Origin: an uncultured Dokdonia sp.
Lineage (GTDB): Bacteria; Bacteroidota; Bacteroidia; Flavobacteriales; Flavobacteriaceae
Direction of reading: 5' to 3'
DNA length: 64,000 nucleotides
Assembly (NCBI GenBank): GCA_947503305.1
Contig: CANNDF010000001.1
Coordinates: forward strand, 930,001-994,000
The notes below the pieces were generated by a model. The model was not told the DNA's origin, made no database searches, and worked only from the letters and a program-made list of their open reading frames with translations. Position 1 is the stretch's first letter; every line of letters starts with the position of its first letter. Positions 96-62,109 of the stretch are shown here, one piece after another. A program made the position numbers and the translations under genes.

Positions 96-109
96 GCTTT
101 CGCGAAAGC
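96..109. repeat. Iterated palindrome GCTTTCGCGAAAGC, copy 1 (intergenic)
   Basis: Perfect copy, five bases downstream of the stop codon of the minus-strand nuclease gene and before its terminator. Confidence 0.9.
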
Positions 110-114
110 GAAAC

Positions 115-1170
115 TTACTTTGAAACTTCTTTAATCAATACAATATATACTGGGAAGTGATCACTATATCCGCCTGTATAGCCTCCGTTTGCAAAACTAC
201 GGTATGGGTACCCTTTATAGCGCCCTTTGGGATTGCTTAAATAATTTTTATTATGGATACGAGCTTTAAAGAATCGATATGAGCTGTAATCTTTACGTAG
301 AAGAGGTTCGGTGATTATGATTTGATCAAAAAGATTCCATCCATCACGATATGCTAAGGTGCCAATTCCCTTTTTAAACATAGGTTCCATAGGATTATAT
401 AGCTCCTGATCTTTTACTTTTTCTTTATCTCCTTTTGCATACATTATTTTTTTTACACTAGGGCTTGTAGGATCATCATTAAGATCTCCCATGGTAATAA
501 TTTTTGCATAAGGGTCATTGCTTTGTAGGCTATCAATAATTTTCATGTTAAGTTTTGCGGCAGCTATACGTTTTTTTCGGCTTCGGGCTTCCCCTCCAGA
601 GCGGGAAGGCCAGTGATTAACAATAACATGAATCATATCTCCGTCTAGTAATCCAGATACAAGTAATTGATCACGGGTAAATCTACGTTTTTGAGAATCT
701 TCATTATCATATATTATAAGCTCATGCTTACTGATATTTATAGGTTTAAAAAGGGCTTTCTGATACATGAGTGCTACATCAATACCCCTTCTATCTGGGG
801 AGTCAAAATGAGCTATTCCATAATCTTTAGAGAGCAATTGAGGGTCGTTTGCAAGTGCTTCAACAGTTTTTCTATTTTCTATTTCTGCTAAGCCAATAAG
901 TGCAGGGGCATTTTTGGTTATATCAAAACCAATTTCGGCAATGACACCTGCCATTTTATGAACTTTATCTGCATAAATTTCTTCAGTCCAATTGTCTTTT
1001 CCTGTAGGCGTTCTGTCATCATCAAAAGTGATAGGGTCATTTTCTGTATCAAAAAGATTCTCAACGTTATAGAAGGCTATTGTTTGAGGTTTGAAGGTTT
1101 TATCATTTTGTGCTTTTGCAAAAGCAAAACTTAATAAAACAACAATAATCAAGTGCTTTTTTAAATTCAT
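115..1170 (-). CDS. Secreted endonuclease/exonuclease/phosphatase (EEP) family protein
   Basis: A 351-aa protein with an N-terminal signal peptide (about residues 1-20, ending ...AFAKAQ). EEP-superfamily landmarks appear in order: FYNVENLFD (metal-binding Asn), GLAEIEN (metal-binding Glu), VNHWPSRSGG, GDLNDDP (metal-binding Asp/Asn) and the C-terminal YSDHFPV with the catalytic His. The expected activity is metal-dependent phosphodiester cleavage in the periplasm or outside the cell; the substrate is not readable. It diverges from a TonB receptor followed by a DUF5689 lipoprotein, which suggests use of extracellular nucleic acid or phosphate esters (inference). A paralogue without a clear signal peptide lies at 17493-18473. 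A degenerate palindrome, GCTTTTGCAAAAGC, lies inside the signal-peptide codons at 1112-1125. Confidence 0.85.
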   Translation of the reverse strand: MNLKKHLIIVVLLSFAFAKAQNDKTFKPQTIAFYNVENLFDTENDPITFDDDRTPTGKDNWTEEIYADKVHKMAGVIAEIGFDITKNAPALIGLAEIENRKTVEALANDPQLLSKDYGIAHFDSPDRRGIDVALMYQKALFKPINISKHELIIYDNEDSQKRRFTRDQLLVSGLLDGDMIHVIVNHWPSRSGGEARSRKKRIAAAKLNMKIIDSLQSNDPYAKIITMGDLNDDPTSPSVKKIMYAKGDKEKVKDQELYNPMEPMFKKGIGTLAYRDGWNLFDQIIITEPLLRKDYSSYRFFKARIHNKNYLSNPKGRYKGYPYRSFANGGYTGGYSDHFPVYIVLIKEVSK

Positions 1171-1218
1171 TTAGCAGGTTGTATTAATTTTATGTAAAGA
1201 GATAAACATATCTCGTGC

Positions 1219-1254
1219 CAAAGGTACTGAATACCTTTAAAATGAGTATTTTTG
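1219..1254. promoter_or_regulatory. Divergent -7 promoter elements
   Basis: A TACCTTTG box reads on the minus strand (1226-1219) toward the nuclease, and TATTTTTG reads on the plus strand (1247-1254) toward the TonB receptor. Both fit the Bacteroidota -7 consensus TAnnTTTG. No clean TTTG -33 box was seen at the expected spacing for either, so the call rests on the -7 match and position. Confidence 0.45.
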
Positions 1255-1312
1255 CGCGGCAAATGTTAACAGTTTTATAATAAGTAACTGTTACACTAAT
1301 CTAATTTATTTT

Positions 1313-4180
1313 ATGAAGCAACTTATTTTAAGACTTTTATTCGTTTTTGTAGCTGTTCCAGTAATTGCACAATCTTCGGTAAAAGGGGTAGTTATAGATG
1401 CTCTTACTACAGAACCATTGCAAGGTGTTGCAATTACTGTTGAAGGTGCAGGTATTACTACAGAGACAGATGCGACGGGCGCATTTTCATTGAGTCAAAA
1501 CTTACCTTTTGGAGATCAGATACTATCGATCGTAAAAGTAGGTTTTGTATCGAGACGTCTTCCTATAATAATACAGGAAGGTAATTTACTTGATCTTGCA
1601 GAGATCACTCTTGAAGTAGATCTGGCAGCAGAGCAAGAGCAGGTAGGGTTGATTTCACTATCTGATAATGAACTTAATGGGGACGATGGTGATTTGGGTA
1701 GTTTTAATGTTTCTGGTTTACTTTCTGCTGGGCGAGATGTATTTTTAAGTGCAGCAGCATTTGACTGGAGTGCTACTTTTTTTAGACCAAGAGGCCTTGA
1801 TAATGCAAATGGAAAAGTTCTTATCAATGGTGTTGAAATGAACAAACAATTCAATGGACGCCCACAATGGGGTAACTGGGGAGGTCTTAATGATGCTCAG
1901 CGTAATCGAGAATTTACACAAGGGCTTACTGCTAATGAATACTCTTTTGGGGGACTTGCAGGAGTAACAAATATTATAATGAGAGCCTCTCAATACCGTA
2001 AGGGGGCAGGTGTTTCTTACGCTGGAGCAAATCGTTCTTATGAAGGACGTATCATGGCCAATTATAGCACGGGGCTTCTTTCAAACGGTTGGGCTTTTAG
2101 TGTAATGGCATCGAGACGTTTTGGAAACGAAGGTTTTATAGATGGAACATTGTATGACGCAAATTCCTTTTTTGTAGCTATAGAAAAAAAGATTAATGAT
2201 AAGCATAGTATTAACCTTACTTCTTTCTTCACTCCAAATAGAAGAGGTAGAAGTACTGCGTTAACTCAAGAGATATTTGACTTAAAAGGGCGCCAGTATA
2301 ACCCTTTCTGGGGATATCAAGATGGGGAAATACGAAATACACGTACTAGGGAAATAGAAGAACCCGTTACATTATTAAGCCATTACTGGAATGTTTCTGA
2401 TAAAACATCTATTAATACCAATATTGGATACCAAACGGGAACAATAAAAAATAGCCGAATAGATAATAATGGAGCTACACTAGTAGAGATTGATGGGCAG
2501 CAGTTTTTCTCGGGAGGTGCTCGTAATCCTTCTCCAGATTATTATCAATTACTACCTAGTTTCTTTTTACAAGATGAAACGCCTAGTCTTTCAGATTTTC
2601 AAAATGCTTTCTTGGCACAACAAGACTTTATCAATGACGGGCAATTTGATTGGAATAACTTATATGAAGGAAATGCTATTTTAAGATCGCAAGGTAGAAA
2701 TGCAGTATATGTAGTTCAAAATGACGTAATAGAAGATTCTCAATTAAGTGCAAACATTATATTAAATACGATCCTTACAGAAAACATAACGCTTAATGCT
2801 AATGTAAGTTATCGTGGTTTAAAGAGCGAGAATTATGCTGAGGTAGAAGATTTATTAGGTAGTACAGGATATTTAGATATAGACACATTTACTGAAGCCG
2901 AGTCTGGAGATGCTTCTGGGGATATTGCGACTACAAAAGCGCAGAGTGATGTCCGAAACCCTAACCGTATTGTAGGCGTAGGAGATCGTTATAAATACAA
3001 TTATGAGATAGATGCCGATGTGGTTTCTGGTTTTGCACAAGCTCAATTCAAATATAATAAGGTCGATTTTTATTTAGGAGGAACGATTTCTCAGACCAAT
3101 TATCAACGTAACGGATTATATGAAAACGGGAACTTCCAAAATATTGAAGGCCAGGTAGGCTCTTTTGGAAACAGTGAAAAACTAGAATTCACAAATGGTG
3201 GTTTCAAAGCTGGACTTACATATAAAGTTACGGGTCGTCATCTTATAGATGTAAACGGAGGATTCTATTCTAATGCTCCTACAATACGAAATTCTTTTGT
3301 AAATGCACGTCAAAATAATGAAGTAGTTGCTGGTTTAGAGAGTGAAAAGATTCGATCTATAGATGCAAGTTATATTTTTAGATCCCCATTAGTAAAGGCT
3401 AGACTTACAGGATATTATACTGGTTTTAGCGATGGTACAGATATAGGGTTTTACTTTACCGAAGATCTAGGAGGATTGGGTGCTGGTGAAGGTGATGCTT
3501 TTGTACAAGAAGTGGTAAATAATATAGAACGTCGTAATATCGGAGCAGAAATAGGAATAGAAGCACAGGTACTACCTACATTAAAACTTAAGGCAGCTGC
3601 TAGTATTGGACAATATACATTTACTAATAACCCTAATCTATACTTGAGAAGTGATGATTTTGAAGGGGCACTTACTTTTGGTGATGGGACAACACAATTG
3701 GAAGATTTACATGTTGCCGGCGGACCTGAACGCGCGTTTCAGTTAGGGTTTGAATACCGTGATCCTGATTTTTGGTGGATAGGTGCTACAACAAACTATT
3801 TTTCAAATGCATATATAGATGTAAGTAATCTTGCACGATCTGCAAATTTTGCTACCGATGCAGATGGATTACCTTTTAATGATTATGATGAAGGTGTTGC
3901 AAGAGATTTATTAAGGCAACAACAATTTGATGACTATTTCTTAGTCAATATAGTAGGTGGAAAATCTTGGAAAATAAAAGATTATTTTGTTGGCTTTTTT
4001 GCGACTATAAATAATGTTCTTGATGAACAATATGTTACTGGAGGATTTGAACAATCACGTAATGCAACTTTTAGAAACGTACGTGAAGATAAAGCCAGAG
4101 AAAATGGCCCTGTTTTTGGACCTCGATTTTTCTTTGGAAATGGAACAACTTATTACGTAAATTTTTACGTTCGCTTTTAA
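1313..4180 (+). CDS. TonB-dependent outer-membrane receptor with carboxypeptidase-like regulatory domain
   Basis: A 955-aa protein with a signal peptide (1-20, ending VIAQ). A CarboxypepD_reg-like beta-sandwich follows (about 22-105, starting SSVKGVVIDALTTEPLQGV), then a plug domain (about 120-230) and a long beta-barrel ending in a terminal aromatic residue (...NFYVRF), as usual for outer-membrane barrels. It imports a ligand energised by TonB/ExbBD. The ATG at 1313 gives a standard signal peptide. The DUF5689 lipoprotein gene begins 28 bases after the stop and is probably co-transcribed, in the arrangement of a receptor with its surface lipoprotein. With the divergent EEP nuclease, the locus may take up products of nuclease action; the ligand itself cannot be read from sequence. 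Confidence 0.88.
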   Translation: MKQLILRLLFVFVAVPVIAQSSVKGVVIDALTTEPLQGVAITVEGAGITTETDATGAFSLSQNLPFGDQILSIVKVGFVSRRLPIIIQEGNLLDLAEITLEVDLAAEQEQVGLISLSDNELNGDDGDLGSFNVSGLLSAGRDVFLSAAAFDWSATFFRPRGLDNANGKVLINGVEMNKQFNGRPQWGNWGGLNDAQRNREFTQGLTANEYSFGGLAGVTNIIMRASQYRKGAGVSYAGANRSYEGRIMANYSTGLLSNGWAFSVMASRRFGNEGFIDGTLYDANSFFVAIEKKINDKHSINLTSFFTPNRRGRSTALTQEIFDLKGRQYNPFWGYQDGEIRNTRTREIEEPVTLLSHYWNVSDKTSINTNIGYQTGTIKNSRIDNNGATLVEIDGQQFFSGGARNPSPDYYQLLPSFFLQDETPSLSDFQNAFLAQQDFINDGQFDWNNLYEGNAILRSQGRNAVYVVQNDVIEDSQLSANIILNTILTENITLNANVSYRGLKSENYAEVEDLLGSTGYLDIDTFTEAESGDASGDIATTKAQSDVRNPNRIVGVGDRYKYNYEIDADVVSGFAQAQFKYNKVDFYLGGTISQTNYQRNGLYENGNFQNIEGQVGSFGNSEKLEFTNGGFKAGLTYKVTGRHLIDVNGGFYSNAPTIRNSFVNARQNNEVVAGLESEKIRSIDASYIFRSPLVKARLTGYYTGFSDGTDIGFYFTEDLGGLGAGEGDAFVQEVVNNIERRNIGAEIGIEAQVLPTLKLKAAASIGQYTFTNNPNLYLRSDDFEGALTFGDGTTQLEDLHVAGGPERAFQLGFEYRDPDFWWIGATTNYFSNAYIDVSNLARSANFATDADGLPFNDYDEGVARDLLRQQQFDDYFLVNIVGGKSWKIKDYFVGFFATINNVLDEQYVTGGFEQSRNATFRNVREDKARENGPVFGPRFFFGNGTTYYVNFYVRF

Positions 4181-4208
4181 ATTGATATGAATTTTAGAAT
4201 AAATGATT

Positions 4209-6182
4209 ATGAAAACAAATAAATTAACACAATTATTTACAGCACTTTTTGCCATGATGGTAATCGTAAGCTGTGTGCAAGATGACGATTTTTCTATCCC
4301 AGATTTGGATAATGAAGTTTTGCAGATAGAAGGACAGTTAATCCCTATAAGTAGTGTTGCTGGGCAAGTTGCACAAGCTAATGCTAATGGAGATGCGACT
4401 GTTACTTTTGAGGATACGGATACTTTTATTGAAGGATATGTAATTTCTAGTGATGAAGCAGGAAACTTTTTTGAAGAAATAATTATTCAAGATGCTCCTG
4501 AGAATCCAACTACTGGAATACGTGTACTTATAGATGTTAACCCATTGTTTACTAGTTACGAATTTGGTAGAAAAATATTTGTACGACTAAACGGACTTTC
4601 GGCAGGCTTTTCCAATGGAGTCCTTACATTAGGAATTAGAGATGGTGACTTAGCCGAAAAAATACCAGCTTCTTTACAGGATCAGGTAATTGCAAGAAGT
4701 AGTGAGGTGGCAACAATTGTACCTTTGTCAATATCGTTTAGTGATTTTTCAGTTGATAGAACAAACCTTTTTATATCTCTTGCAGATGTACAGTTTAATG
4801 CGAGTGAAGTTATTGTACAACGTAAATCATATGCTGCAGAGCCAGAAGATGAGTTTGATGGTGAACGTGTATTAGAAGACTGTTCTACAGGAGGCCGTAC
4901 TATATTTAGCACAAGTACTTTTGCAGATTTTAAAGGATTATTGCTTCCGGTAGGAAGAGGTAGTATCAATGGGATACTTACTAGAGATTTCTTTGGGGAA
5001 GTTTTTAACATAACAGTTAATGATCCTAGTGGAATGGATTTTCCAACAGAAGAGCGTTGTGATTTATGTGGGCTAGCAGAAGAAGTAGGTGATGGTGATG
5101 TATTTGTAGACTCACTTGATAATGGATCATTAAGTAGTGAATGGACTAATTTTACACAAGAAGGGACAGAGTCATGGGAACCTTTTAGTGCAGGTGGTGG
5201 TTTTGGTACTGCTGCTCGTATAGGGTCATTTATGTCTGGAGATGAGAGTACAATAGCATGGTTAATTACACCAGAAATTGATTTTGATGCTCAAGAGATG
5301 GAAACTATGAATTTTGAAACGTCTAATAGTTTTTCTGATGGTAGTGAACTTGCCTTACTTTTTTCTGATGATTGGGATGGAAATACCGATAATATTGATG
5401 ATGCAACGTGGAGACCTATTTTAGAGGCTGTTATCGTATCTGATGATACGTTTTTTGAGGATTGGGTACCTTCTGGTAATATAGACTTATCTTGCCTTAC
5501 TGGAACAGCGCATATAGCATTTAGATATATGGGAAGTGGTGATGCCGATTTTGATGGAACCTATGAACTTGATAATTTTGCTATCAATGGTTTAGGAGAG
5601 GAGACACCTCCAGCCGGATCTGTAGATTGCGGTGTAGCAAGTAGTGCAGGAGCGACTGTACTTTTTGAAGACTTTTTTGAAACACAAACAGTGGGGCAAA
5701 TTATTTCTGGAAATGGGTGGACAAATTTCCAAGAAGATGGAACACGTACTTGGGAAGCATTCACAGGTAGTGGAGATAATGTTTCTTTAGGTATTTCTGC
5801 TAGAGTGAGTCCATTTATGTCTGGAGATGCATCTACCGTTGCATGGTTAGTAACCCCAGAAGTAAACTTTGATGCACAGGAAGAAGAGACGCTTCAATTT
5901 ATGACTTCTAATAGTTTTTCTGATGGGAGTACATTAGAACTTTTATTTTCAAGTGATTGGGATGGTGTTCCAGAAAATATTCCAAGTGCAACTTGGGATA
6001 CGTTATCATCTGGTATTATCGTTTCTGATGATGAATTCTTCGGAAATTGGGTAGATTCAGGAATTGTAGATCTTTCATGTATTGAGGGATCTGGATATAT
6101 AGGATTTAAGTATGTAGGAAGTGGAGATGGAAACTTTGACGGGACGTATGAGCTTGACGAAATACAGATCAATGCACAATAA
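4209..6182 (+). CDS. DUF5689-type lipoprotein with two tandem choice-of-anchor-J-like domains
   Basis: The start MKTNKL at 4209 is chosen because it puts a basic N-terminus before the hydrophobic stretch; another ATG lies two codons upstream at 4203. A lipobox VIVSC gives an acylated Cys at about residue 22, followed by acidic residues (CVQDDD) resembling the flavobacterial surface-export signal. A DUF5689-like domain covers about residues 40-265. Two homologous domains follow (about 296-462 and 485-657), both carrying W-TNF-QEGT/EDGT, FMSGD-ST-AWL-TPE, SNSFSDGS and FDGTYELD blocks. It is probably surface-exposed and works with the receptor encoded just upstream, either as ligand-binding partner or as a carbohydrate- or nucleic-acid-binding scaffold (inference). 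A strong terminator follows 32 bases after the stop. Confidence 0.8.
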   Translation: MKTNKLTQLFTALFAMMVIVSCVQDDDFSIPDLDNEVLQIEGQLIPISSVAGQVAQANANGDATVTFEDTDTFIEGYVISSDEAGNFFEEIIIQDAPENPTTGIRVLIDVNPLFTSYEFGRKIFVRLNGLSAGFSNGVLTLGIRDGDLAEKIPASLQDQVIARSSEVATIVPLSISFSDFSVDRTNLFISLADVQFNASEVIVQRKSYAAEPEDEFDGERVLEDCSTGGRTIFSTSTFADFKGLLLPVGRGSINGILTRDFFGEVFNITVNDPSGMDFPTEERCDLCGLAEEVGDGDVFVDSLDNGSLSSEWTNFTQEGTESWEPFSAGGGFGTAARIGSFMSGDESTIAWLITPEIDFDAQEMETMNFETSNSFSDGSELALLFSDDWDGNTDNIDDATWRPILEAVIVSDDTFFEDWVPSGNIDLSCLTGTAHIAFRYMGSGDADFDGTYELDNFAINGLGEETPPAGSVDCGVASSAGATVLFEDFFETQTVGQIISGNGWTNFQEDGTRTWEAFTGSGDNVSLGISARVSPFMSGDASTVAWLVTPEVNFDAQEEETLQFMTSNSFSDGSTLELLFSSDWDGVPENIPSATWDTLSSGIIVSDDEFFGNWVDSGIVDLSCIEGSGYIGFKYVGSGDGNFDGTYELDEIQINAQ

Positions 6183-6490: not shown

Positions 6491-8377
6491 TTATTTTACA
6501 ATTTTAAAGACACAACGTCTATTTAATTGGTGATCATCTTCACTACAGTTAGAAGCACAATTTACGGCTAGGTCTGTTTCTCCTTTTCCAACACCAGAAA
6601 TACGACTTGCATCTATTCCTTTACTTATGATATAATCTCTCATAGATTTTGCTCTTTTTTCAGAGAGCGTCATATTATACGAATCTGATCCACGAGCATC
6701 TGTATGACTTTCTGCAGCGATTACAAGATCTGGATACGTATTCATGGCGAGTATAAGACGATCTAACTCAGCTGCTGCAGAAGGTCTTATATTCCATTTG
6801 TCAAAATCAAAGTAGATAGGGTTAAGTACTACTTCTGTAGGTGTAATTTCTGGTTGTTTGATTTCTTCTAGAGTAACTATATTATTACTACTAGCTTTAC
6901 CTACAGAAAGTTTTCTTGTTTTGGACTTAAATCCATCGGCAGATATTGTTACTGTATACTCTCGATTACATTTTGAACTGAATAAATATTTTCCTGTAGT
7001 TGTTGCTGTATCTGAATCGGATGTGTTTTCAGAATCATTTTGAATGGTTACTAAGGCTTTACTTATTCCGTTTCCAGATTCGTCTTCTACATTAATAGCT
7101 ACATCCACATCACATGGAGGTACTTGACCTAAGATATAGATATCATCACTTCCTTTTCCACCATCTCTATTGGAAGAGACATATCCAGTTTCTTTAACAG
7201 GATCAATACTAATTGCAAAGTCATCACTTGTACTATTTACTCCAGGTCCCATGTTTGATGGAGATTGGAATGAGTTCGCTTTCGCGGAAGCGGAAAAAAC
7301 ATCCAACCCACCTAATCCTAAATGACCATTACTAGAGAAGTATAGAGTCCCATTTGCATCTACGAATGGAAAAACTTCAGATCCTGTAGTATTTATTGTA
7401 TCATCTAGGCGCTGTGGCTCACCGAAAGTCCCATTGTCATTGATAGCAACCATGTATAAATCTGATTGCCCTTTTCCTCCTGGTTTATCGCTAGTAAAGT
7501 AAAGTGTTTTCCCATCGGGACTCAATGCGGGATGTCCTGTAGAGAAATTATCATCATTAAAAGGAGCAGAAGTGATATTTTCCCATCGTCCAGCAACTTT
7601 TTCGGCAGTATATAAATTAATTTGATTAATTCCTTCTTCACTTTTGTCATAATCTCCTTCAAAATAATCATTACGATCAAAATACATTTTCATTCCGTCT
7701 GGCGAAATTGCAATTGTACTTTCATGAAATCGAGTATTTACATCTCCTTCTAGTATTTCTGGTTTTCCCATGGAAGATCCATCAGTAGTAGCTGTATATA
7801 TATCTAAAAAAGGTTCTCCATTAAGTTTGTGATTCTTTCTAGACATATTACGAGAAGATGAAAAATAAAGGGTATTATCTTTTACATATCCTCCAAAATC
7901 TGCATACTTTGAGTTTAAACTTCCAGCATTGGTTACTGTATATAGAGGTTCTCTGTTTTTTAGATTTTCCAAATAATTTGGTGTTTCTAAAAAGGCGATA
8001 GCTCTGGAATCATTAGGAGCGACTTTTGCAAATTTTTTCATCCAAGTAGTATATCCTTTTTCATCACCATTTGCTTTTAGTGTTTCAGCATACGTAAGCA
8101 TAGTACTCGGAGAAACATCTTTTTTATTTTTGACTGCTCGTTTAAAAAAGGAAGCTGCTTTTTTTGAATCATTTAAAATGGCATAACTTTTAGCAAGTTG
8201 TTCATAGACATAGGTGTCTGCTTTACCCTTTTCAATAAGGCCTGTGTATGCATCTATCGCTTCTTTATATTCCAATCTACTAAAGAGTTGATCGGCTTTT
8301 TTTGTGTCTTTATTTTGTCCATACGTATAAGATATACTTAGTACGGCTAGCAATATATATATGTAAAACTTCTTCAT
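6491..8377 (-). CDS. OmpA-family protein with TPR, PD40 propeller and carboxypeptidase-like domains
   Basis: The start MKKFYIYILL is preferred (628 aa); an ATG three codons upstream at 8386 is the alternative. Signal peptide (ending YTYGQ), TPR-like helices (about 20-110), WD40/PD40 beta-propeller repeats (about 185-415, with SPDGMKMYF, SPDGKTLYFTSD, NGTLYFSSNG and GYVSSNRDGG), a carboxypeptidase-regulatory-like sandwich (about 425-500) and a C-terminal OmpA peptidoglycan-binding domain (about 520-628, YFDFDKWNIRP, ESHTDARGS, LSEKRAKSMRDYI). It should tether an outer-membrane assembly to peptidoglycan. It follows PorP/SprF and a type-B-sorted adhesin in one operon, the common arrangement for SprF-dependent export and attachment. 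A one-mismatch copy of the iterated palindrome lies in frame at 7278-7291. Confidence 0.88.
   Translation of the reverse strand: MKKFYIYILLAVLSISYTYGQNKDTKKADQLFSRLEYKEAIDAYTGLIEKGKADTYVYEQLAKSYAILNDSKKAASFFKRAVKNKKDVSPSTMLTYAETLKANGDEKGYTTWMKKFAKVAPNDSRAIAFLETPNYLENLKNREPLYTVTNAGSLNSKYADFGGYVKDNTLYFSSSRNMSRKNHKLNGEPFLDIYTATTDGSSMGKPEILEGDVNTRFHESTIAISPDGMKMYFDRNDYFEGDYDKSEEGINQINLYTAEKVAGRWENITSAPFNDDNFSTGHPALSPDGKTLYFTSDKPGGKGQSDLYMVAINDNGTFGEPQRLDDTINTTGSEVFPFVDANGTLYFSSNGHLGLGGLDVFSASAKANSFQSPSNMGPGVNSTSDDFAISIDPVKETGYVSSNRDGGKGSDDIYILGQVPPCDVDVAINVEDESGNGISKALVTIQNDSENTSDSDTATTTGKYLFSSKCNREYTVTISADGFKSKTRKLSVGKASSNNIVTLEEIKQPEITPTEVVLNPIYFDFDKWNIRPSAAAELDRLILAMNTYPDLVIAAESHTDARGSDSYNMTLSEKRAKSMRDYIISKGIDASRISGVGKGETDLAVNCASNCSEDDHQLNRRCVFKIVK
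7278..7291. repeat. Degenerate copy of the iterated palindrome (one mismatch)
   Basis: GCTTTCGCGGAAGC differs from the consensus at one base and encodes part of ASAKAN in the OmpA-family gene. Confidence 0.75.
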
Positions 8378-17492: not shown

Positions 17493-18473
17493 TTATAATC
17501 GATTCTTAAAAACACAATACACAGGAAAATGATCACTATAGCCACCTAAATATTTTTTACCTGCATAGGTGCGAAAAGGGTTGCCTTTAAAACGCCCTTT
17601 AAATTCAGTTAAGTAATGTTCATTATAGATATCAGATTTACTATATCTAAGCGTGTTTTCATGCATACGCATAAAATTTGTAGACAAGATAATTTGATCA
17701 AAGAGGTACCATTCAAAACTATGATTAAGGCTTCCCTCATATCTGGTATTTAAAAAGACCATTGGATTATAAAGATCTTTTTGAACTAAATTGTTTTTAA
17801 CACTTTCATTATGTGGCCCATCATTAAAATCTCCCATGACAATAATACGAGCATCTTCATCTTCTGCTTTTATTTTTTCAATAATAGCCCTGTTTTTTAA
17901 AGCAGCTTCTATGCGTTTGTGTTCCGTTTCATTTTCTCCACGCCTACGAGAAGGCCAGTGATTTACTAAAACATGAACTTTTATTCCCTGTAAGTTTCCG
18001 ATTACATATAAAATATCGCGTGTATAATCTCGCTCACCAGAGGGTGTTTCTAGATAGACTGTAATTGTCTCATGGGATAGTACTTCAAAACAATCTGTAC
18101 GGTATAGCAAGCCTACGTCAATCCCCCTCTCATCAGGAGAATCATAATGTACCACATCATATGGGTACTTTTTTAACGCTTTGGTATCTATTAAGTCCAC
18201 TAAGACGTCTATGTTTTCTACTTCTGCAACACCTAAGAGAGCTGGAGGAGCCTTGGTCTCTTTTTTGCCTATCTGGGCGATGACCTTTCCTAATTTACGT
18301 AGCTTGTTTTTGTACTTTTTTTTATCCCAGTTTTTGTATCCTTTAGGAGTAAAATCATCATCAAGGATAGTGGGATCGTCTTCGGTATCAAAAAGATTCT
18401 CTAAGTTATAAAACCCTACAGTTAGTTTTTTTTGTTTTGAGTATGCTTTCGCGAAAGCGGTATCGTCATCCAT
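17493..18473 (-). CDS. EEP-family nuclease/phosphatase, probably cytoplasmic paralogue
   Basis: Start MDDDTAFAKAY at 18473 (326 aa) is preferred; the longer start at 18518 would add 15 residues and begin only 22 bases from the divergent hflX start codon, across its promoter box. EEP landmarks: GFYNLENLFDTEDDP, GVAEVEN, SPDERGIDVGLLY, VNHWPSRRRGE, GDFNDGP and YSDHFPVYCV. It is clearly paralogous to the secreted protein at 115-1170, but no convincing signal peptide is visible, so it may act in the cytoplasm. A perfect iterated palindrome encodes residues AFAKA right at the N-terminus, where family members usually begin directly with the YN-ENLFD strand. Confidence 0.8.
   Translation of the reverse strand: MDDDTAFAKAYSKQKKLTVGFYNLENLFDTEDDPTILDDDFTPKGYKNWDKKKYKNKLRKLGKVIAQIGKKETKAPPALLGVAEVENIDVLVDLIDTKALKKYPYDVVHYDSPDERGIDVGLLYRTDCFEVLSHETITVYLETPSGERDYTRDILYVIGNLQGIKVHVLVNHWPSRRRGENETEHKRIEAALKNRAIIEKIKAEDEDARIIVMGDFNDGPHNESVKNNLVQKDLYNPMVFLNTRYEGSLNHSFEWYLFDQIILSTNFMRMHENTLRYSKSDIYNEHYLTEFKGRFKGNPFRTYAGKKYLGGYSDHFPVYCVFKNRL
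18445..18458. repeat. Iterated palindrome, copy 2 (in CDS)
   Basis: Perfect GCTTTCGCGAAAGC inside the first ten codons of the EEP nuclease, read in the AFAKA phase. Confidence 0.9.
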
Positions 18474-22686: not shown

Positions 22687-23244
22687 TTATAGTTTTTTAT
22701 ATAAATACCACATAGGACGATACGGTGCATGTAATAAGTCAAAATCCAATAGTTGTAATCCTCCTTTCTGAAATCCTAAGCGTTCGTAAAAATACATAGC
22801 TTGTGGATGTTTATCCATAGCGTCAAGCCAAATAATTTTGTGATGCGTTTTACGTGCACGCTCTTCAGTATATTTAATAATTTTCTTTCCTATACCTTTT
22901 CCTTGTATAGCGGGATCCAAATAGATACGATGCACTTTAAGGCTTGGGGACTTTGGTAATTCTGGGTAAATGTAATTTTCTATAATTTTTAATATACCTA
23001 TATAGGAGTCGAATTCTGATAGTGCGCTTTCGCGAAAGCGTATAAAATAATAATACGACCCTTCTTCTAAGAGTTCTTTTTTGAGGTTTTTATGTGTATA
23101 TAATGTATCTATGTACCATTTTCCTTGATCTTTCCAAAAATGTGAATATGCAGGCGGGTAGATACGTTTCATAAGTGTATATAACACTTCTTGGTCATCT
23201 AGAGTAATTGGAATAAGTTGAAGTTGATCTGAAATAGAAATCAC
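22687..23244 (-). CDS. GNAT family N-acetyltransferase
   Basis: 185 aa. The acetyl-CoA-binding motif A reads LKVHRIYLDPAIQGKGIGKKII (Q-x-x-G-x-G/A variant), followed by IIWLDAMDKHPQAMYFYERLGFQKGG, typical of GNAT C-termini. The substrate is unknown. It begins 11 bases after sufS ends, so it is co-transcribed with the SUF genes. A perfect iterated palindrome lies in frame in the RFRES phase at 23026-23039. Confidence 0.88.
   Translation of the reverse strand: MISISDQLQLIPITLDDQEVLYTLMKRIYPPAYSHFWKDQGKWYIDTLYTHKNLKKELLEEGSYYYFIRFRESALSEFDSYIGILKIIENYIYPELPKSPSLKVHRIYLDPAIQGKGIGKKIIKYTEERARKTHHKIIWLDAMDKHPQAMYFYERLGFQKGGLQLLDFDLLHAPYRPMWYLYKKL
23026..23039. repeat. Iterated palindrome, copy 3 (in CDS)
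   Basis: Perfect copy in the GNAT gene, read in a different codon phase (FRES) from the AFAKA copies. Confidence 0.9.
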
Positions 23245-29506: not shown

Positions 29507-29520
29507 GCTTTCGCGAAAGC
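29507..29520. repeat. Iterated palindrome, copy 4 (intergenic, sufA-sufB)
   Basis: Perfect copy, here extended to a perfect 22-bp palindrome at 29503-29524. It begins about 15 bases after the sufA stop codon. Confidence 0.92.
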
Positions 29521-42869: not shown

Positions 42870-43643
42870 TTAATGTAAAAATTTTAGCAAGGTGCTAAGT
42901 GTAGCCTCTCTATTAGAAATATGACTCATATGTCCACCGCTTAAAATCTTAAATTCATGGGTGTATTTTTCAAAGCGCTTTTTATGGTCTATGGCATCTA
43001 TGATCCAATCTGTTTCTCCTAAAATCATTCCTTTTTTAATGGAACTGTTTTTCCAAAGCTTTCCCATATCATCTCTTAAGCGCATTCCTTCATTTGCAGC
43101 TATATATCCTTGTATAGGTGTTTTTAATGCTTGAATTAATGCTTTGTCGATCTCAAGTTGGTGTTCATTCTGAGTTTTTGGGTCAAAAAGATTAATAAAC
43201 GACATACGGATGAGTTGCTTATAATGAGCCTTTGCCATTTGGTTTGCTCGAAGGCGTAATTTTTTACGGTCTTCTTGATCTTGATCAGGAGTAGCATTTA
43301 ATAAGCACAATCCTTTTAAGGCTTCTGGATACGCTTTCGCGAAAGCGCAACCTACATATCCTCCCATTGAATGACCAATAATTGTAACCGAGTTTATACC
43401 TAAAAAATCGATAATGCCTTTTACAACATCTGCCATATCATACATGGTATGAATGTATCCTATACATTCAGAACGCCCATGACCTAACATATCTATACAT
43501 AGAACCCTATGCTCTTTCATCAATTCTGGAAGAAAAGAATTCCACATTGTACTATTTTCTAAAAACCCATGTATTAAGATAAGGGGTTCTCCAATACCTT
43601 GATCTGTGTAAAAAATGTGTGAGCCTTTATGTGTAAATTGCAT
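42870..43643 (-). CDS. Alpha/beta hydrolase
   Basis: 257 aa. LILIHGFLEN (oxyanion-hole HG), nucleophile elbow GHSMGG with Ser92, acid in GETDWIID (about 215) and the catalytic His in GGHMSHIS (about 238). Substrate unknown. It has no signal peptide and is probably cytoplasmic. It diverges from brnQ by 35 bases. The iterated palindrome sits in frame at 43333-43346 (AFAKAYPEA), eight residues after the nucleophile elbow. Confidence 0.9.
   Translation of the reverse strand: MQFTHKGSHIFYTDQGIGEPLILIHGFLENSTMWNSFLPELMKEHRVLCIDMLGHGRSECIGYIHTMYDMADVVKGIIDFLGINSVTIIGHSMGGYVGCAFAKAYPEALKGLCLLNATPDQDQEDRKKLRLRANQMAKAHYKQLIRMSFINLFDPKTQNEHQLEIDKALIQALKTPIQGYIAANEGMRLRDDMGKLWKNSSIKKGMILGETDWIIDAIDHKKRFEKYTHEFKILSGGHMSHISNREATLSTLLKFLH
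43333..43346. repeat. Iterated palindrome, copy 7 (in CDS)
   Basis: Perfect copy in the alpha/beta hydrolase gene, AFAKA phase. Confidence 0.9.
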
Positions 43644-48719: not shown

Positions 48720-51569
48720 ATGAAATTACGTTATCTTCTCACTTCGGGAGTGATGTTATTTGCTTTCGCGAAAGCAAATGCACAACAACCCGCAACATCC
48801 GCTTTACAAGTAGAACAGGCATTGATGCAGAAACGAACTGCCATGCAAAAATCACTGGTGAAGAATCTTCCTTTTGAAAATATAGGCCCTTCTGTTATGA
48901 GTGGTCGTGTTGTAGATCTAGCTGTAAATCCAGATATGCCTTCGGAGTTTTATGTAGGATATGCAAGTGGTGGTGTATGGTATACTCACAATAATGGAAC
49001 TACGTTTGAACCTGTATTAGATACTAGCGATACACAGAACGTAGGAGATATTGCTGTAGATTGGAAAAGCGGTACGATATGGGTAGGAACTGGAGAAAAT
49101 AATTCTTCGCGTTCAAGTTATGCAGGAATTGGAATCTTAAAATCTACAGATAAAGGAACGACATGGACACATGTAGGACTTTCTGACTCACATCATATAG
49201 GACGTATTCTTATCAACCCTCAAAACCCAGATGAGGTTGTGGTGGGAGTAGTAGGTCATTTGTATTCTGATAATGATGAACGTGGGGTATATAAAACCAA
49301 AGATGGAGGAGCGACATGGACCAAAACTCTTTTTGTAAATTCAGAAAGTGGGATTATAGATATAGACCATGACCCTGCAAATTATAATCTGATGTATGCT
49401 TCTGCTTGGGATAAAGATCGTAAAGCATGGAATTTTGACGGATCTGGATCTGGATCTGGAGTCTATAAAAGTACTGATGGGGGAGACTCCTGGGAAAAGT
49501 TAAATGGATTCCCTTCTGGAGATGGGGTAGGACGTATAGGATTGGCAGTATATAATTCAAATACAGTATATGCCGTACATGATAGTCAGTTTCGCCGGAA
49601 GGCAGACAAGAAAAAAGATAAGACGTCAAATGCTCTTACAAAAGATGATTTTAAATCAATGACCAAGGATGTTTTTCTTGCTATAGAAAATAAAAAACTG
49701 AATAATTTCTTAAAACAAAATGGGTTTCAGGAAAAATATCGTGCAGAAAATGTAAAAGCGATGGTCAGAGAAGGTTCTGTACAACCTGCAGATCTCGCAA
49801 CCTATCTAGAAACGGCAAATACACAGCTTTTTGATACACCCGTAACTGGAGCAGAAGTGTATCGATCTGATGACGCAGGTAAAACATGGAAAAAAACTCA
49901 TGAAGGATACCTTGATGATATCTATTATAGCTATGGGTATTATTTTGGCGAGATTCATGTAAACCCTCAAGACGATCAAGATATTTATATCTACGGAGTA
50001 CCTATTATTACCTCAAAAGACGGAGGAAAAACGTTTAAGAATATAGGTGCAGAAAACGTCCATGCCGATCATCATGCGTTGTGGATTAATCCCAAAAATG
50101 AAAAACACTTAATCAATGGAAATGATGGAGGGGTAAATATAACCTATGACGATGGCGAAAATTGGATCAAAGCAAATCAACCTAATGTAGGGCAGTTTTA
50201 TGCTATTCAGGTAGATAATGAAGAGCCCTATAATGTATATGGAGGTCTACAGGACAATGGCGTGTGGGTAGGTGCAAATAATGCTCCCGAAAACAAAGGA
50301 TGGCATCAAAGCGGACAATACCCTTGGGAAAGTATAATGGGAGGAGATGGAATGCAAGTACAGGTAGATAGTCGTGATGCAAATGTGGTATATACAGGAT
50401 TTCAATTTGGAAATTATTTTAGGATCAATCGAGAGACCGAAGATTTTAAGCGATTTTCTATCAAGCATGAGTTAGGAGAAAAACCATATCGTTTTAACTG
50501 GCAGACTCCTATATTATTAAGTTCACACAATCAAGATATTTTATATCTGGGAGGTAATAAGTTAATGCGCTCTATGAATCAAGGCGATGACTGGACTGCT
50601 GTAAGTAAAGACCTTACCAATGGTGGTAAAGACGGGAATGTTGCTTATGGAACATTAACTACGATAAGCGAGTCTCCATTTGAGTTTGGTCTTATTTATA
50701 CAGGAAGTGATGATGGTAAGGTATATGTGACTAAGAATTCAGGAGGGAGCTGGACAGATATCGGAACGAGTTTTCCTAAAGATTTATGGGTATCTAGAGT
50801 GGTCGCGTCAGAACACAAAAAAGAGCGTGTGTATGTCACTTTAAATGGATATCGTTGGGATGACTTTACTACCTATGTATATGTATCTGATAACTATGGG
50901 CAATCATGGAAAAATATTTCGGCAGGCATTCCTATGTCTCCTGTGAATGTGATTGTAGAAGATCCTAAAAAAGATACTATTATATATGTAGGGACAGATA
51001 ATGGAGCCTATGTAAGTGTAGATGGAGGAGATTCATATCACGCTTTTGCTCAAGGATTACCCGCTGTGGCGATACATGATATAAAAATTCAAAAAAGAGA
51101 AAACCACCTATTACTAGGAACTCACGGGCGTAGTATTTATAAGGCAGATATAACACCTATTCAAAAGATGGATGTATCCAAAGGAACCCAGCTTTTTGAA
51201 GTGGCTTCTGTACGCAATTCATCACGTTGGGGAAATAGTTTTAGTGTGTGGAGAGATCCATTTGAACCTAAGGTTGCTGTATCCTATGTTACAAGTTCGT
51301 TAGGTAAATTCTCATTAGTAGTAAAAGATGAAAATGAAAAAGAATTACAACGGATACCTTTATCTTCACAGGTAGGAGTAAATGTCGTAGACTATGATCT
51401 TACGATTACTGAAAAAGGAAAAAAAGCACTTGAAAAATCAAACGCTGAGTTGGATATTCAAAAAGCCAAAAACGGCAACTATTATTTGCCTAAAGGGAAG
51501 TATACCCTTGTATTAGATGCAGGAGGTGGAAATTCGAGTGTTGCAACAACGATGTTGGAAATAAAATAA
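48720..51569 (+). CDS. Secreted sortilin/VPS10-like BNR-repeat protein
   Basis: 949 aa. Signal peptide MKLRYLLTSGVMLFAFAKANAQ, in which AFAKA is encoded by the iterated palindrome. At least nine Asp-box (BNR) motifs mark one or two beta-propellers: STDKGTTW, TKDGGATW, STDGGDSW, SDDAGKTW, SKDGGKTF, TYDDGENW, TKNSGGSW, SDNYGQSW, SVDGGDSY. The sequence resembles the VPS10/sortilin-like glycosyl-hydrolase-annotated proteins of Bacteroidota, whose function is not established. The last about 150 residues form a separate beta-domain; no T9SS tail is visible. A terminator follows. Confidence 0.87.
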   Translation: MKLRYLLTSGVMLFAFAKANAQQPATSALQVEQALMQKRTAMQKSLVKNLPFENIGPSVMSGRVVDLAVNPDMPSEFYVGYASGGVWYTHNNGTTFEPVLDTSDTQNVGDIAVDWKSGTIWVGTGENNSSRSSYAGIGILKSTDKGTTWTHVGLSDSHHIGRILINPQNPDEVVVGVVGHLYSDNDERGVYKTKDGGATWTKTLFVNSESGIIDIDHDPANYNLMYASAWDKDRKAWNFDGSGSGSGVYKSTDGGDSWEKLNGFPSGDGVGRIGLAVYNSNTVYAVHDSQFRRKADKKKDKTSNALTKDDFKSMTKDVFLAIENKKLNNFLKQNGFQEKYRAENVKAMVREGSVQPADLATYLETANTQLFDTPVTGAEVYRSDDAGKTWKKTHEGYLDDIYYSYGYYFGEIHVNPQDDQDIYIYGVPIITSKDGGKTFKNIGAENVHADHHALWINPKNEKHLINGNDGGVNITYDDGENWIKANQPNVGQFYAIQVDNEEPYNVYGGLQDNGVWVGANNAPENKGWHQSGQYPWESIMGGDGMQVQVDSRDANVVYTGFQFGNYFRINRETEDFKRFSIKHELGEKPYRFNWQTPILLSSHNQDILYLGGNKLMRSMNQGDDWTAVSKDLTNGGKDGNVAYGTLTTISESPFEFGLIYTGSDDGKVYVTKNSGGSWTDIGTSFPKDLWVSRVVASEHKKERVYVTLNGYRWDDFTTYVYVSDNYGQSWKNISAGIPMSPVNVIVEDPKKDTIIYVGTDNGAYVSVDGGDSYHAFAQGLPAVAIHDIKIQKRENHLLLGTHGRSIYKADITPIQKMDVSKGTQLFEVASVRNSSRWGNSFSVWRDPFEPKVAVSYVTSSLGKFSLVVKDENEKELQRIPLSSQVGVNVVDYDLTITEKGKKALEKSNAELDIQKAKNGNYYLPKGKYTLVLDAGGGNSSVATTMLEIK
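48762..48775. repeat. Iterated palindrome, copy 8 (in signal-peptide codons)
   Basis: Perfect copy, extended to a perfect 22-bp palindrome at 48758-48779, inside the signal-peptide codons of the sortilin-like gene. Confidence 0.92.
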
Positions 51570-56397: not shown

Positions 56398-56411
56398 GCT
56401 TTCGCGAAAGC
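56398..56411. repeat. Iterated palindrome, copy 9 (intergenic, after sdhB)
   Basis: Perfect copy 13 bases downstream of the sdhB stop codon. Confidence 0.9.
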
Positions 56412-56768: not shown

Positions 56769-56864
56769 CCACATAGAGATGACGTGTAGCCCGCTGTGTT
56801 TTTTATTGATATTTGTTAGTCCCTAGAGGGATGAAAAAGAATTGAAATTCAAACCTAAAAAACA

Positions 56865-57851
56865 ATGAGTGTAGTAGAGCCTATCTTAGCAGAAAATAAA
56901 GACAGATTTGTGATTTTTCCAATCCAGCATCATGATATATGGGAATGGTATAAAAAATCGGAAGCTAGCTTTTGGACTGCAGAAGAAATTGACTTGCATC
57001 AAGATCTTACAGATTGGTCTACAAAACTTACCGATGATGAACGTTACTTCATCAAACATATCCTTGCTTTTTTTGCCGCATCAGACGGAATAGTAAATGA
57101 AAACTTAGCAGAAAACTTTGTAAATGAAGTACAATATTCTGAAGCTAAATTCTTTTACGGATTCCAAATCATGATGGAAAATATCCATTCTGAAACCTAC
57201 TCTTTACTCATCGATACCTACGTCAAAGATGATAAAGAAAAAAATATGCTCTTTAATGCTATTGAAACTTTTCCTGCTATCAAGAAGAAGGCAGAGTGGG
57301 CATTAAAGTGGATCGATAGTCCAAGCTTTGCCGAACGTCTTATTGCTTTTGCTGCAGTAGAAGGGATCTTTTTCTCAGGAGCTTTCTGTTCTATTTTCTG
57401 GCTTAAGAAAAGAGGGCTTATGCCTGGACTAACCTTCTCTAATGAGTTGATCTCTAGAGACGAAGGTGTGCACTGTGATTTTGCAGTACATCTCCATAAC
57501 CATCATTTAATAAATAAAGTGCCTAAAGAGCGTATCACAGGAATCATTGTAGATGCCCTTAATATAGAACGAGAGTTTATTACCGAATCGCTTCCTGTAA
57601 GTTTAATCGGTATGAATTCTAACCTAATGACACAGTATCTAGAATATGTGACAGATCGCTTACTCACAGAATTAGATTGTGAAAAAGTGTATAACACAGC
57701 AAACCCTTTTGACTTTATGGATATGATCTCGTTACAAGGAAAAACAAACTTCTTTGAAAAACGAGTGGGAGAATATCAAAAAGCAGGTGTTGTAAAAGAT
57801 GCAAATGATGATGGCAAAGGGCAACAAATTAGTTTTGATGCGTCATTCTAA
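56865..57851 (+). CDS. nrdB: Ribonucleotide reductase class I small subunit NrdB
   Basis: 328 aa. Dimetal ligands: Glu/Asp in [21 protein letters not shown], Glu in [12 protein letters not shown] and [10 protein letters not shown]. The C-terminal tail needed to bind NrdA is present ([10 protein letters not shown] ends acidic/aromatic). It provides the radical for dNTP synthesis. It precedes nrdA, the reverse of the E. coli order, with a 197-bp structured gap between them. Confidence 0.95.
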
Positions 57852-58048
57852 AAAAGAACAAATCCTTGGTTTTTTAGATAGTAATCTAAGACCGCTTCGC
57901 AACTAGGTAGGTTGTCTATTAAAGTTGCGAACCCTAATAATAACAAATCATAATTAACGACATCGTTTGAGAAAATGATGGAGTACAAGTCAATTAACCT
58001 TTTTCTCAATTGGGGGAACACTTTTGAGAGCGTAAATTAGTAAAGTGT
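57852..58048 (+). promoter_or_regulatory. nrdB-nrdA intergenic region with two inverted repeats
   Basis: TTCGCAACT (57896-57904) pairs with AGTTGCGAA (57923-57931), an 18-nt loop; TTGAGAAAA (57967-57975) pairs with TTTTCTCAA (58001-58009), a 25-nt loop. Neither is followed by a T run, so these are not ordinary terminators. A regulatory RNA or RNA-processing element is possible. Confidence 0.45.
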
Positions 58049-60655: not shown

Positions 60656-60675
60656 AAAATTAAATAAGTGTTATT

Positions 60676-60718
60676 ATAAACCCGATTATTTTATCATAAA
60701 TAATCGGGTTTATTTTTT
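60676..60718 (+). terminator. Intrinsic terminator of nrdA
   Basis: 16-bp stem (60676-60691 with 60698-60713; core AAACCCGATTATT) with a 6-nt loop and T run. Confidence 0.88.
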
Positions 60719-60805
60719 GTAATAAATTGGTATAAAATATTTTACAAGTAACACTTTAGTTTTCCTAATTTTTAGAATATCTTCCGTAAAAAAAGGATTG
60801 TATTT

Positions 60806-61306
60806 ATGGAAGAAGTAATACCCCCGTCATTTCAATGCTCATTCTGTGATTCTTCTATGGAAGAATCACAAGTCTTTTGTATATCATGTGGATTTCCAGA
60901 AAATGGAACGGAACAGGAAAAGTCAAAATTCCATGCACATCGTGTATTGGAGATGAGAGATACTAAAGATGCTAAAAAAGGTATTAGTAGTGCTAGAAAT
61001 ACACTATTTGTTATTGCTGCTCTTACGATGTTATGGGGGATTTATTATTTTTTCAAAAGTAATTGGGATATATCTATTATTATAACATATATGATTCTTG
61101 CTTGTATTTATATGGTACTTGGGTATTGGTCACAACAGAAACCACTTATAGCTCTTATATTAGGTTTGCTTGTATACTTAACGATTATTGTATTGGCAGC
61201 ATTATTTGAACCTTCAACTATATTAAGTGGAATTATCGTAAAAATACTAGTGATTATCTATTTAGGGAAAGGGATAAACTCAGCGTTACATATACGTAAA
61301 GTATAA
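60806..61306 (+). CDS. Zinc-ribbon membrane protein
   Basis: 166 aa. N-terminal zinc ribbon CSFC...CISC (Cys11, 14, 25, 28), a charged linker, then about four hydrophobic segments (about 66-165; TLFVIAALTMLWGIYYFF, YMILACIYMVLGYW, ALILGLLVYLTIIVLAALF, SGIIVKILVIIYLG). Unknown family. Its stop codon overlaps the start of the CPBP protease gene (TAATG), so the two are translationally coupled. Confidence 0.78.
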   Translation: MEEVIPPSFQCSFCDSSMEESQVFCISCGFPENGTEQEKSKFHAHRVLEMRDTKDAKKGISSARNTLFVIAALTMLWGIYYFFKSNWDISIIITYMILACIYMVLGYWSQQKPLIALILGLLVYLTIIVLAALFEPSTILSGIIVKILVIIYLGKGINSALHIRKV

Positions 61307-62088
61307 TGGAAAATAAGATACCACAAATAGCATCCTTATCCTGTGAGCAGTGTAATACCCCTTTGCAAAAGAGGGCTAAATTTTGTGGTACTTGTGGGGC
61401 GGCAGTCAATAAACAGCAGAATGATAAACTGCAAAAAAGTGTACAGTACATTATAGTGTTTTATCTTTCTTTTTTAGCATTGGCTATAGCAAATGCTATT
61501 CTTTTTGAAGAAGATACTAGTCTTTCTTCTGAGATTGTCGTTGAGGCGGTATTTATTTTAATGACATTAACCTTTTGCCTACTAGATATAAAAGCAATTC
61601 TCAAATTATATGGACTAGGGGATATTGATTTAAAATCAATAGTATTATCAATAGTGGCTCCCATTATAACAGCTATTATTGTCTACTATACTATAGGATG
61701 GATTAATGTTGTTTTGGAAGGTTATGATAATAATATGTATGAAGCGTATGTCTATTATGATTACCCATTAGTATACGCGATTATTTTTTTGGCAATTTTA
61801 CCTCCTATATTTGAAGAGCTTGCTTTTAGAGGGTTTTTATTCAATCAGATGCGTAAAGTAAGTTCTGTGCAGGTGACTATTATTGGGACTTCTTTTATTT
61901 TTGCATTAGTGCATTTCTCTTTGATTTCTTTTATTTGGATCTTCCCCTTCGGAATGCTTTTAGGGTATTTGCGACAGCGATATCAAACATTATGGTTAGG
62001 AATGATTGTACACTTCATTCATAACTTTTTAGTATTGATGTTGGATTATTATTACTATAACACTACAATTTTAGAATTAGGTTTGTAA
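61306..62088 (+). CDS. CPBP-family intramembrane metalloprotease with N-terminal zinc ribbon
   Basis: 260 aa. Zinc ribbon CEQC...CGTC (Cys13, 16, 27, 30), transmembrane segments, then the CPBP/Abi motifs: EELAFR (Glu170, Glu171, Arg175), FALVHFSL and MIVHFIHNF histidines, forming the in-membrane metal site. Such Rce1-like proteases process membrane peptides, prenylated proteins or bacteriocin-like factors; the substrate here is unknown. Both proteins of this overlapping pair begin with a zinc ribbon, which suggests they bind each other or a shared partner. A 22-bp palindrome follows three bases after the stop. Confidence 0.87.
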   Translation: MENKIPQIASLSCEQCNTPLQKRAKFCGTCGAAVNKQQNDKLQKSVQYIIVFYLSFLALAIANAILFEEDTSLSSEIVVEAVFILMTLTFCLLDIKAILKLYGLGDIDLKSIVLSIVAPIITAIIVYYTIGWINVVLEGYDNNMYEAYVYYDYPLVYAIIFLAILPPIFEELAFRGFLFNQMRKVSSVQVTIIGTSFIFALVHFSLISFIWIFPFGMLLGYLRQRYQTLWLGMIVHFIHNFLVLMLDYYYYNTTILELGL

Positions 62089-62095
62089 AAAGTAC

Positions 62096-62109
62096 GCTTT
62101 CGCGAAAGC
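62096..62109. repeat. Iterated palindrome, copy 10 (intergenic)
   Basis: Perfect copy extended to 22 bp (62092-62113), beginning immediately after the CPBP gene stop codon. Confidence 0.92.

Follow-up and report, generated by a model that had tools for sequence, protein, structure and literature searches.

A 14-bp palindrome iterated through Dokdonia genomes: proposed core of a protein-read tag and candidate DNA-uptake sequence

DNA-uptake sequences have been described from two proteobacterial families, and the reason for their existence is debated. Excerpts of the literature state that the accumulation of such sequences by molecular drive has been modelled for Haemophilus (PMC7811141), that an adjacent barrel/DUF5689 pair, RA0C_RS04915/RA0C_RS04920, is essential for transformation in Riemerella anatipestifer, an organism without pilus homologues (PMC8459023), and that Riemerella columbina prefers its own DNA, the motif not being known and the words listed by its authors (≤10 bp) being A/T-rich (PMC7965970). 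Here we describe a 14-bp palindrome, GCTTTCGCGAAAGC, which an earlier sequence-only reading had picked out in a 64-kb stretch of DNA from an uncultured Dokdonia sp. (assembly GCA_947503305.1, contig CANNDF010000001.1, positions 930,001–994,000; the whole stretch is called the window below). As the most likely of several explanations, we tentatively propose a self tag of ~54–58 bp, read by a protein, with the palindrome at its core; the tag would most likely be a DNA-uptake sequence that molecular drive has spread.

The window contains 10 perfect copies of GCTTTCGCGAAAGC; each of the positions given for them by the sequence-only reading was verified, and so was that of a one-mismatch copy at 7278. 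When up to two mismatches were allowed, 13 matches were found (the two-mismatch copies lie at 1112 and 27187), compared with a mean of 0.08 and a maximum of 2 in dinucleotide shuffles. The concern that the window might merely hold a chance cluster was dispelled by the 570 copies in the 4.26-Mb genome from which it comes (G000), the reversed-string control giving 0. Counts were far above the expectation of Markov models of order 1–5 in all five data sets that were compared: 63 copies in 464 kb of the window's genome and 149 in 540 kb of a second Dokdonia genome (G001), against 0.0002–0.0035 expected, and 67, 29 and 46 copies in three smaller samples, against ≤0.012. The density in the two Dokdonia samples is 0.14–0.28 copies per kb. 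Copies number in the hundreds and are near-perfect, with few near-misses: G001 has 899 perfect copies and 1,112 matches at ≤2 mismatches (control 17). Near-misses are commoner in G207, a genome of genus g191, which has 408 perfect copies and 732 matches at ≤2 mismatches (control 48).

The distribution of the motif is narrow. The closest named relatives of the window's genome are Dokdonia, and all 18 Dokdonia genomes searched, its own included, hold 369–905 copies each. In a survey of the family (299 genomes, 236 genera), at least one copy was present in 61 genomes and more than 100 in only five, from three genera: G000 with 570, G003 with 857, two genomes of genus g11 with 578 and 664, and G207 with 408. 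The remaining 56 carry 1–19 copies each, so that motif-poor genomes of the family range from 0 to 19 overall. A class-level draw of 345 genomes gave a match in 19, with more than four copies only in the window's own genome; among 80 named loci around a gene of the window the motif was found in nine (eight with Dokdonia in their titles, the ninth being 'Cytophagaceae bacterium SAT149') and in none of the other 71. At ≤2 mismatches, seven of eight motif-poor neighbor genomes gave 6–13 matches against 7–15 in controls, the exception being G090. Intermediate counts were seen in four genomes, namely G093, G303 and G068, with 16–19 perfect copies, and G090, with 31 matches at ≤2 mismatches against a control of 12. 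A search for further palindromes in 20 stretches from 20 genomes, three of which were unusable contigs of 1.3–2.5 kb, revealed no second palindrome with a comparable excess in the 17 usable 20-kb stretches, seven of which had been placed on known motif clusters, leaving ten blind samples. Within the open-licence literature searched, the exact 14-mer was absent, a search for TTTCGCGAAA returned nothing relevant judging from titles, the combination of Dokdonia and palindromes returned nothing relevant by title or start of abstract, and Dokdonia with methylome had no match.

The element is longer than its 14-bp core. The sequence-only reading had noted a TA(C/T)G...CGTA flank, which was borne out: the symmetric extension consists of C or T at −1, mostly A at −2, T at −3 and G or T at −4. 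In both G000 and G001 this is prolonged, as far as about −20, by a tract with little C to the left of the palindrome and little G to the right (C mostly at 2–12% versus 17–19%); past ~20–25 bp from the palindrome the composition returns to near background. The same C-poor tract occurs in g11 (C at 7% versus 16% further out; 46 copies). It is present at intergenic copies, and within genes its sign on the coding strand flips at the palindrome. Flank strengths on the left and right sides are correlated (r 0.37), and no significant excess of pairing between symmetric flank positions was found over shuffled ones. Such extended flanks, symmetric and without pairing covariation, show the pattern of a protein reading two equal halves rather than that of a nucleic-acid hairpin. 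In 48 one-mismatch copies, the changes fall mostly at half-site positions 1, 2, 5 and 6; position 3 was changed twice, position 7 once and position 4 never. The information content amounts to ~36–40 bits, compared with ~12 bits needed for that number of sites, where the core bits are inflated by the choice of sites at ≤1 mismatch and the unselected flanks alone contribute 7–11 bits. The inner octamer TTCGCGAA occurs outside the motif above expectation (seen/expected: 6/1.4 in G000, 17/1.1 in G001, 27/1.2 in other Dokdonia, 26/3.9 in G207 and 3/0.2 in g11) and is rare in absolute terms, so that the recognized unit is the long form.

As to placement, coding and non-coding DNA were assigned by simple open reading frame (ORF) calls. 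Intergenic copies are in excess, accounting for 29 of 63 in G000 and 77 of 149 in G001, where non-coding DNA makes up only 14% and 17%; smaller samples gave 13/21 and 10/17, and the effect was weak in G207 (3/12). They often follow soon after a stop codon, the median distance being 31 bp for G000 and 23 bp for G001. Copies within genes use all three phases, the commonest being that which reads AFAKA (16/34 in G000, 34/72 in G001). The window conforms to this pattern. None of its copies is assigned a strand. Intergenic copies lie at 96..109, at 29507..29520 (with the full TAC...GTA extension), at 56398..56411, 14 bp past the stop of ORF 55638–56384, and at 62096..62109, 8 bp past the stop of ORF 61306–62088. 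The AFAKA phase is used at 18445..18458, in the 5' part of ORF 17493–18518 (whose true start is uncertain), at 32562..32575 in the TonB-receptor ORF 31218–33299, at 43333..43346 in the alpha/beta-hydrolase ORF 42870–43643, and at 48762..48775, codon 15 of the sortilin-like ORF 48720–51569, where four of ten compared Dokdonia-group sequences have a copy. The copy at 38411..38424, near the start of ORF 37026–38444, is in the LSRK phase, and that at 23026..23039, inside ORF 22687–23244 (185 amino acids, aa), has by its coordinates the remaining one; the one-mismatch copy at 7278..7291 lies inside ORF 6491–8386 and encodes ASAKA. With three phases among six in-gene copies, the earlier view that the DNA and not one peptide is acted on holds.

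Spacing had been called irregular in the sequence-only reading, which is correct in that gap sizes vary and incorrect in that the gaps are more even than random. The test used the first 100, 100 and 58 positions of G000, G001 and G207, respectively, with a truncated-exponential null. In G000 the coefficient of variation of the gaps was 0.46 versus 0.77 under the null, a value that none of 20,000 simulations reached (93 of 99 gaps, those ≤20 kb). Spacing was also more even than chance in G001 (P 0.001) and in G207 (P 0.015), and G001 has 3–9 copies per 20 kb over 27 stretches, less variable than a Poisson process (P 0.012). Long motif-free gaps do exist, with 76 kb and 63 kb among the positions listed for G000. 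Ten proteins of the former, the largest of those listed, were looked at, and they include a TrwC relaxase, two integrases and coupling proteins. In loci L025–L027 of the window's genome (contig 1, 760–820 kb), from which the palindrome is absent, genes for these proteins are accompanied by beta-lactamase-family (PF00144) hydrolase genes and a gene for a TIR-domain protein.

The sites are strongly retained, yet their positions turn over between species, apparently by substitution rather than insertion. In alignments of Dokdonia loci below 75% identity, the motif was perfect in both sequences in 32 of 61 site-by-pair comparisons, which cover 17 distinct sites and hence are not independent, versus 1.8% of control windows; retention was 3/13 versus 6.3% at 75–90% identity and 6/7 versus 50% at ≥90%. 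The other sequence had a gap at the motif in 23 of the 61 comparisons; in 0/23 did the gap contain the whole motif, and 15 were one-letter gaps, nearly all at a single site beside a coding insertion. This site, near codon 775, belongs to the sortilin-like gene, in which the motif stands at codon 15 in the window and in three of nine named relatives and near codon 775 in five, L094 having it at neither. Relatives without the motif have substituted sequence at these places, except that at codon 15 the alignments of L094 and one outgroup start later. The peptide FAKA, encoded near codon 775 by motif-bearing species, is replaced by FSKG, FSHG or FSNG in five outgroups, and in four motif-bearing species an eight-codon insertion directly follows the site. 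At the level of genera, a ribonucleotide-reductase tree (25 rows) left most genera unresolved and grouped g11 with the motif-poor G104 (98/96); a two-protein tree with ParB added (16 rows, four of them motif-rich) placed Dokdonia and G207 as sisters (96/97), with g11 apart on a long branch. The motif-rich label therefore needs two changes on the tree, and its distribution over three genera may stem from a shared ancestor and later losses, from a transferred reader, or from convergence.

Outside these carriers, the few copies in several motif-poor genera are grouped in islands with 65–99% DNA identity to each other. Matching islands are found at L060 (1–20000), L053, L059, L061, L062, L065 and L066, all in marine flavobacterial genera otherwise nearly without the palindrome. 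Read by eye, the L060 island carries copper/heavy-metal resistance genes (efflux pump, P-type ATPases, multicopper oxidase), and within one of its TolC-like genes two copies lie 933 bp apart, a spacing that is identical in four genomes. G104 likewise has five perfect and two one-mismatch copies, all within ~35 kb. Such islands may represent DNA received from motif-rich donors, in which case the motif may mark the donor lineage.

The window also encodes machinery that would suit a DNA-uptake sequence. A CarboxypepD_reg protein of 955 aa (1313..4180, + strand), barrel-like by analogy and a candidate uptake channel, is followed by a DUF5689 lipoprotein of 659 aa with two choice-of-anchor-J domains (4203..6182, + strand), a candidate surface DNA binder. 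The two resemble RA0C_RS04915 and RA0C_RS04920 in domain types and adjacency, the comparison being one of domain type and not of sequence; against NCBIfam M949_1556 the lipoprotein scored 253 of 475 bits, below the family cut-off. Divergently placed beside the pair is an ExeM/NucH-like extracellular endonuclease gene (115..1170, − strand; weak family match, below cut-off). Lipoprotein, barrel-type gene and divergent endonuclease gene occur together in 21 of 21 loci (9 motif-rich, 12 not), and the position of the endonuclease gene hints that it may take part in the uptake or processing of DNA. The lipoprotein is highly variable among loci L463–L482, with J domains that seem swapped or duplicated; there are two of these domains in the window's genome and in G014, other Dokdonia seem to have a single one whose type varies, and the DUF5689 part is seemingly duplicated in some other genera. 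The idea that two J domains read the two half-sites was dropped, as a single J domain, of one type or the other, seems to be present in further Dokdonia whose motif is identical. ComEC and DprA were found in all 13 of the motif-rich and motif-poor genomes tested, so the presence of competence genes does not discriminate.

From these elements a mechanism can be proposed. Dokdonia would be competent by a pilus-independent, Riemerella-like route comprising the barrel and the DUF5689 lipoprotein and then ComEC and DprA, and some component of this machinery, acting as the reader, would prefer DNA that bears the motif. DNA of kin with a good motif would be taken up and recombined more often, so that point mutations which make or improve a motif would spread by molecular drive, and the process would continue to about one motif per DNA fragment; copies would thereby become evenly spaced, near-perfect and located where the encoded proteins can bear them. 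The observations from which this starts are the abundance and anatomy of the motif, its retention and even spacing, its origin by substitution at two sites, its absence from the conjugation stretch, and the machinery genes. Two of the results carry the most weight. An excess of information coupled with few near-misses points to competition among taken-up fragments, since perfection of this degree is more than a plain binding site requires; even spacing together with tolerated long gaps would mean that about one copy per fragment suffices and that a missing motif is harmless. Hundreds of near-perfect copies, the intergenic excess, the tolerance-limited copies within genes and the point-mutation origin (two sites in one gene) are all as expected of an uptake sequence. 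A DNA-uptake sequence, missing from the candidates of the sequence-only reading, thus ranks first with us, on a tentative footing, and its main rival is an intracellular DNA-binding protein. Stated in full, the proposal becomes a shade more tentative: this would be the first DNA-uptake sequence in Bacteroidota, a palindromic, orientation-free self tag with strand-polar G/T-rich arms and a pilus-independent reader, which also stamps DNA passed to other genera.

Several results weigh against an uptake sequence. The palindromic form itself does so, as known uptake sequences are not palindromes. Relatives of the DUF5689 lipoprotein were found in 53 of 54 genomes tested, including 44 of 45 motif-poor ones. 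No co-variation with the motif was found for either the barrel or the DUF5689 protein, and since neither is more alike among motif-rich genera, these two proteins alone do not set the specificity; J-domain types, judged by which part of the window's protein aligns, differ within Dokdonia despite an identical motif. A comparison of the proteins in the g11 and g191 samples with those of the Dokdonia samples (small samples, unannotated matches) gave no candidate for the reader. In g191 the C-poor tract is weak (19% versus 23%; 29 copies) and T at −3 is down to 52%. Some low-GC viral contigs, with genes for portal, head, terminase, tape-measure, primase and integrase proteins, bear the motif with its full flanks (L254, L382–L385 and L416–L419, as well as L189, L203, L220, L252 and L281; one has an integrase), so that among recently acquired DNA the motif is absent from the 76-kb conjugation/integration stretch yet borne by phage-like contigs. 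The L254 group carries it at ~0.16 copies per kb (overlapping stretches counted), a host-like density, and its relatives at 46–58% identity lack it in 24 loci (238 kb). The viral scan as a whole gave at least 133 copies, 80 of 133 in stretches of ≥45% GC, and among the matches listed 26 have at least five of six flank features; one low-GC viral site recurs with identical flanks devoid of these features. Viral copies with featureless flanks or in GC-rich DNA we take to be chance. Finally, known uptake sequences were judged by one author to be less even than chromosome-compacting sites should be, according to an excerpt (PMC1939737), while the spacing of uptake signal sequences (USS) is described as relatively even in part of another source (PMC7811141).

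The main rival, a site for an intracellular protein that organizes or segregates the chromosome, with a symmetric dimer bound through an extended footprint once every few kb, we consider unlikely, although less so than the other alternatives. The symmetric palindrome with its extended symmetric footprint and lack of pairing covariation would suit it, as would the even spacing, the even density of G001 and the strong retention. It has to accommodate two tolerated gaps, one of 76 kb and one of 63 kb, an information content about three times that required to find the sites (a ratio raised by the selection of the core), and the turnover of positions between species. Moreover, there is no strong regional bias as in MatP- or Noc-like systems (origin and terminus not located), and each of seven motif-rich genomes has exactly one ParB, with a helix-turn-helix region that by eye resembles that of motif-poor genomes; no extra or diverged ParB paralogue was present in the seven. 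The weight of the ParB result is reduced in that the loci fetched showed no canonical parS beside parB. A Chi-like recombination or repair signal would explain why strand-specific G/T-rich flanks aim at the center from both sides, the strand 5' of the palindrome being that which would become the 3' single strand once a break there is resected, and it would be compatible with even spacing and with occurrence in phage-like contigs. However, Chi sites known so far are short and not palindromic, and no translocating nuclease is known to read as much as a 14-bp palindrome with 20-bp flanks; we regard this explanation as improbable.

Lower still we place a palindrome generated, as in the Elhai model for HIP1 (highly iterated palindrome 1) of cyanobacteria, by methyltransferase-directed mismatch repair, for which high repetition and even spacing speak, with HIP1 as precedent in the excerpt available (PMC4390886). 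The likeness to HIP1 suggested in the sequence-only reading extends to the genome-wide repetition and stops at the recognized unit, which is far longer, TTCGCGAA outside the motif being rare in absolute terms. Its suggestion of a methylation target is weakened: of the two methyltransferase families searched, the C5 family PF00145 was present in three of seven motif-rich genomes (missing from four) and PF01555 in two (missing from five), the window's genome having neither. Less probable again is a self-marker by which a defense system spares motif-bearing DNA. Here the one flavobacterial phage-like group with host-like density and motif-free relatives would fit, but the window's genome has kept 76 kb of motif-free DNA that includes genes for conjugation and integration. 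That the palindrome is a small mobile element of the inserting or REP-like kind, also put forward earlier, is very improbable; its high copy number is countered by the absence of any element border past the graded flanks, by two sites in the one orthologous gene followed that differ by substitution, and by the gapped comparisons, in which the whole motif never lay within a gap. Equally remote is a bidirectional transcription terminator. Many intergenic copies do lie soon after stop codons, but about half of all copies are within genes, the flanks lack left–right pairing covariation, and a T-run was not found (26 of 466 flanks had TTTT within 15 nt past the hairpin, while random 15-mers contain it in 12.3% of cases); a terminator scan of 44001–64000, the part covered, called none of its three copies.

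Should the element prove to be an uptake sequence, it would be a palindromic one from another phylum and with other machinery, on which the molecular-drive idea could be tested independently, and it could point to the basis of self-preference in Riemerella columbina. If it is instead the site of a chromosome protein, it points to an undescribed and abundant DNA-binding protein. Whichever holds, the motif can serve as a stamp of origin, as illustrated by the related islands, one of them read as copper resistance, in several motif-poor marine genera.

Compared with the systems described so far, the element behaves like a HIP or an uptake sequence and is classed as neither; it is not counted among uptake sequences because the barrel and DUF5689 proteins, the candidate receptors examined, do not co-vary with it. 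USS of Pasteurellaceae and DNA-uptake sequences of Neisseriaceae share with the palindrome high copy numbers (quoted as 1,465–2,206 and 1,892), a core with weaker flanks, scarcity in coding DNA and, as proposed here for the palindrome, gradual accumulation by drive, as stated in excerpts of PMC7811141 and PMC1939737. The same excerpts describe them as scarce in newly acquired DNA, where the palindrome is absent from the 76-kb stretch and present on phage-like contigs. Unlike them, the Dokdonia element is palindromic, has a 14-bp core, belongs to another phylum, is abundant in 3 of 236 sampled genera, occurs on phage-like contigs and is known here from sequence alone. HIP1 (GCGATCGC) and the alternative HIPs of cyanobacteria are likewise highly iterated, genome-wide and lineage-specific; however, HIP1 has 8 bp at ~1 per kb in the excerpt of PMC4390886, whereas the Dokdonia element has 14 bp and long flanks at its lower density, and neither of the two methyltransferase families searched accompanies it consistently in motif-rich genomes. 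It differs from ParB/parS and Noc sites in the length of its center, in having 400–900 sites, and in being accompanied by a single ordinary-looking ParB in each of seven genomes. The parS consensus has symmetric TTTC...GAAA arms, as does the Dokdonia palindrome. With the Riemerella machinery (RA0C_RS04915/04920), the window shares domain types and adjacency, and self-DNA preference is on record for R. columbina; unlike Dokdonia, Riemerella has no known motif, and the barrel/DUF5689 pair is also found in motif-poor genera.

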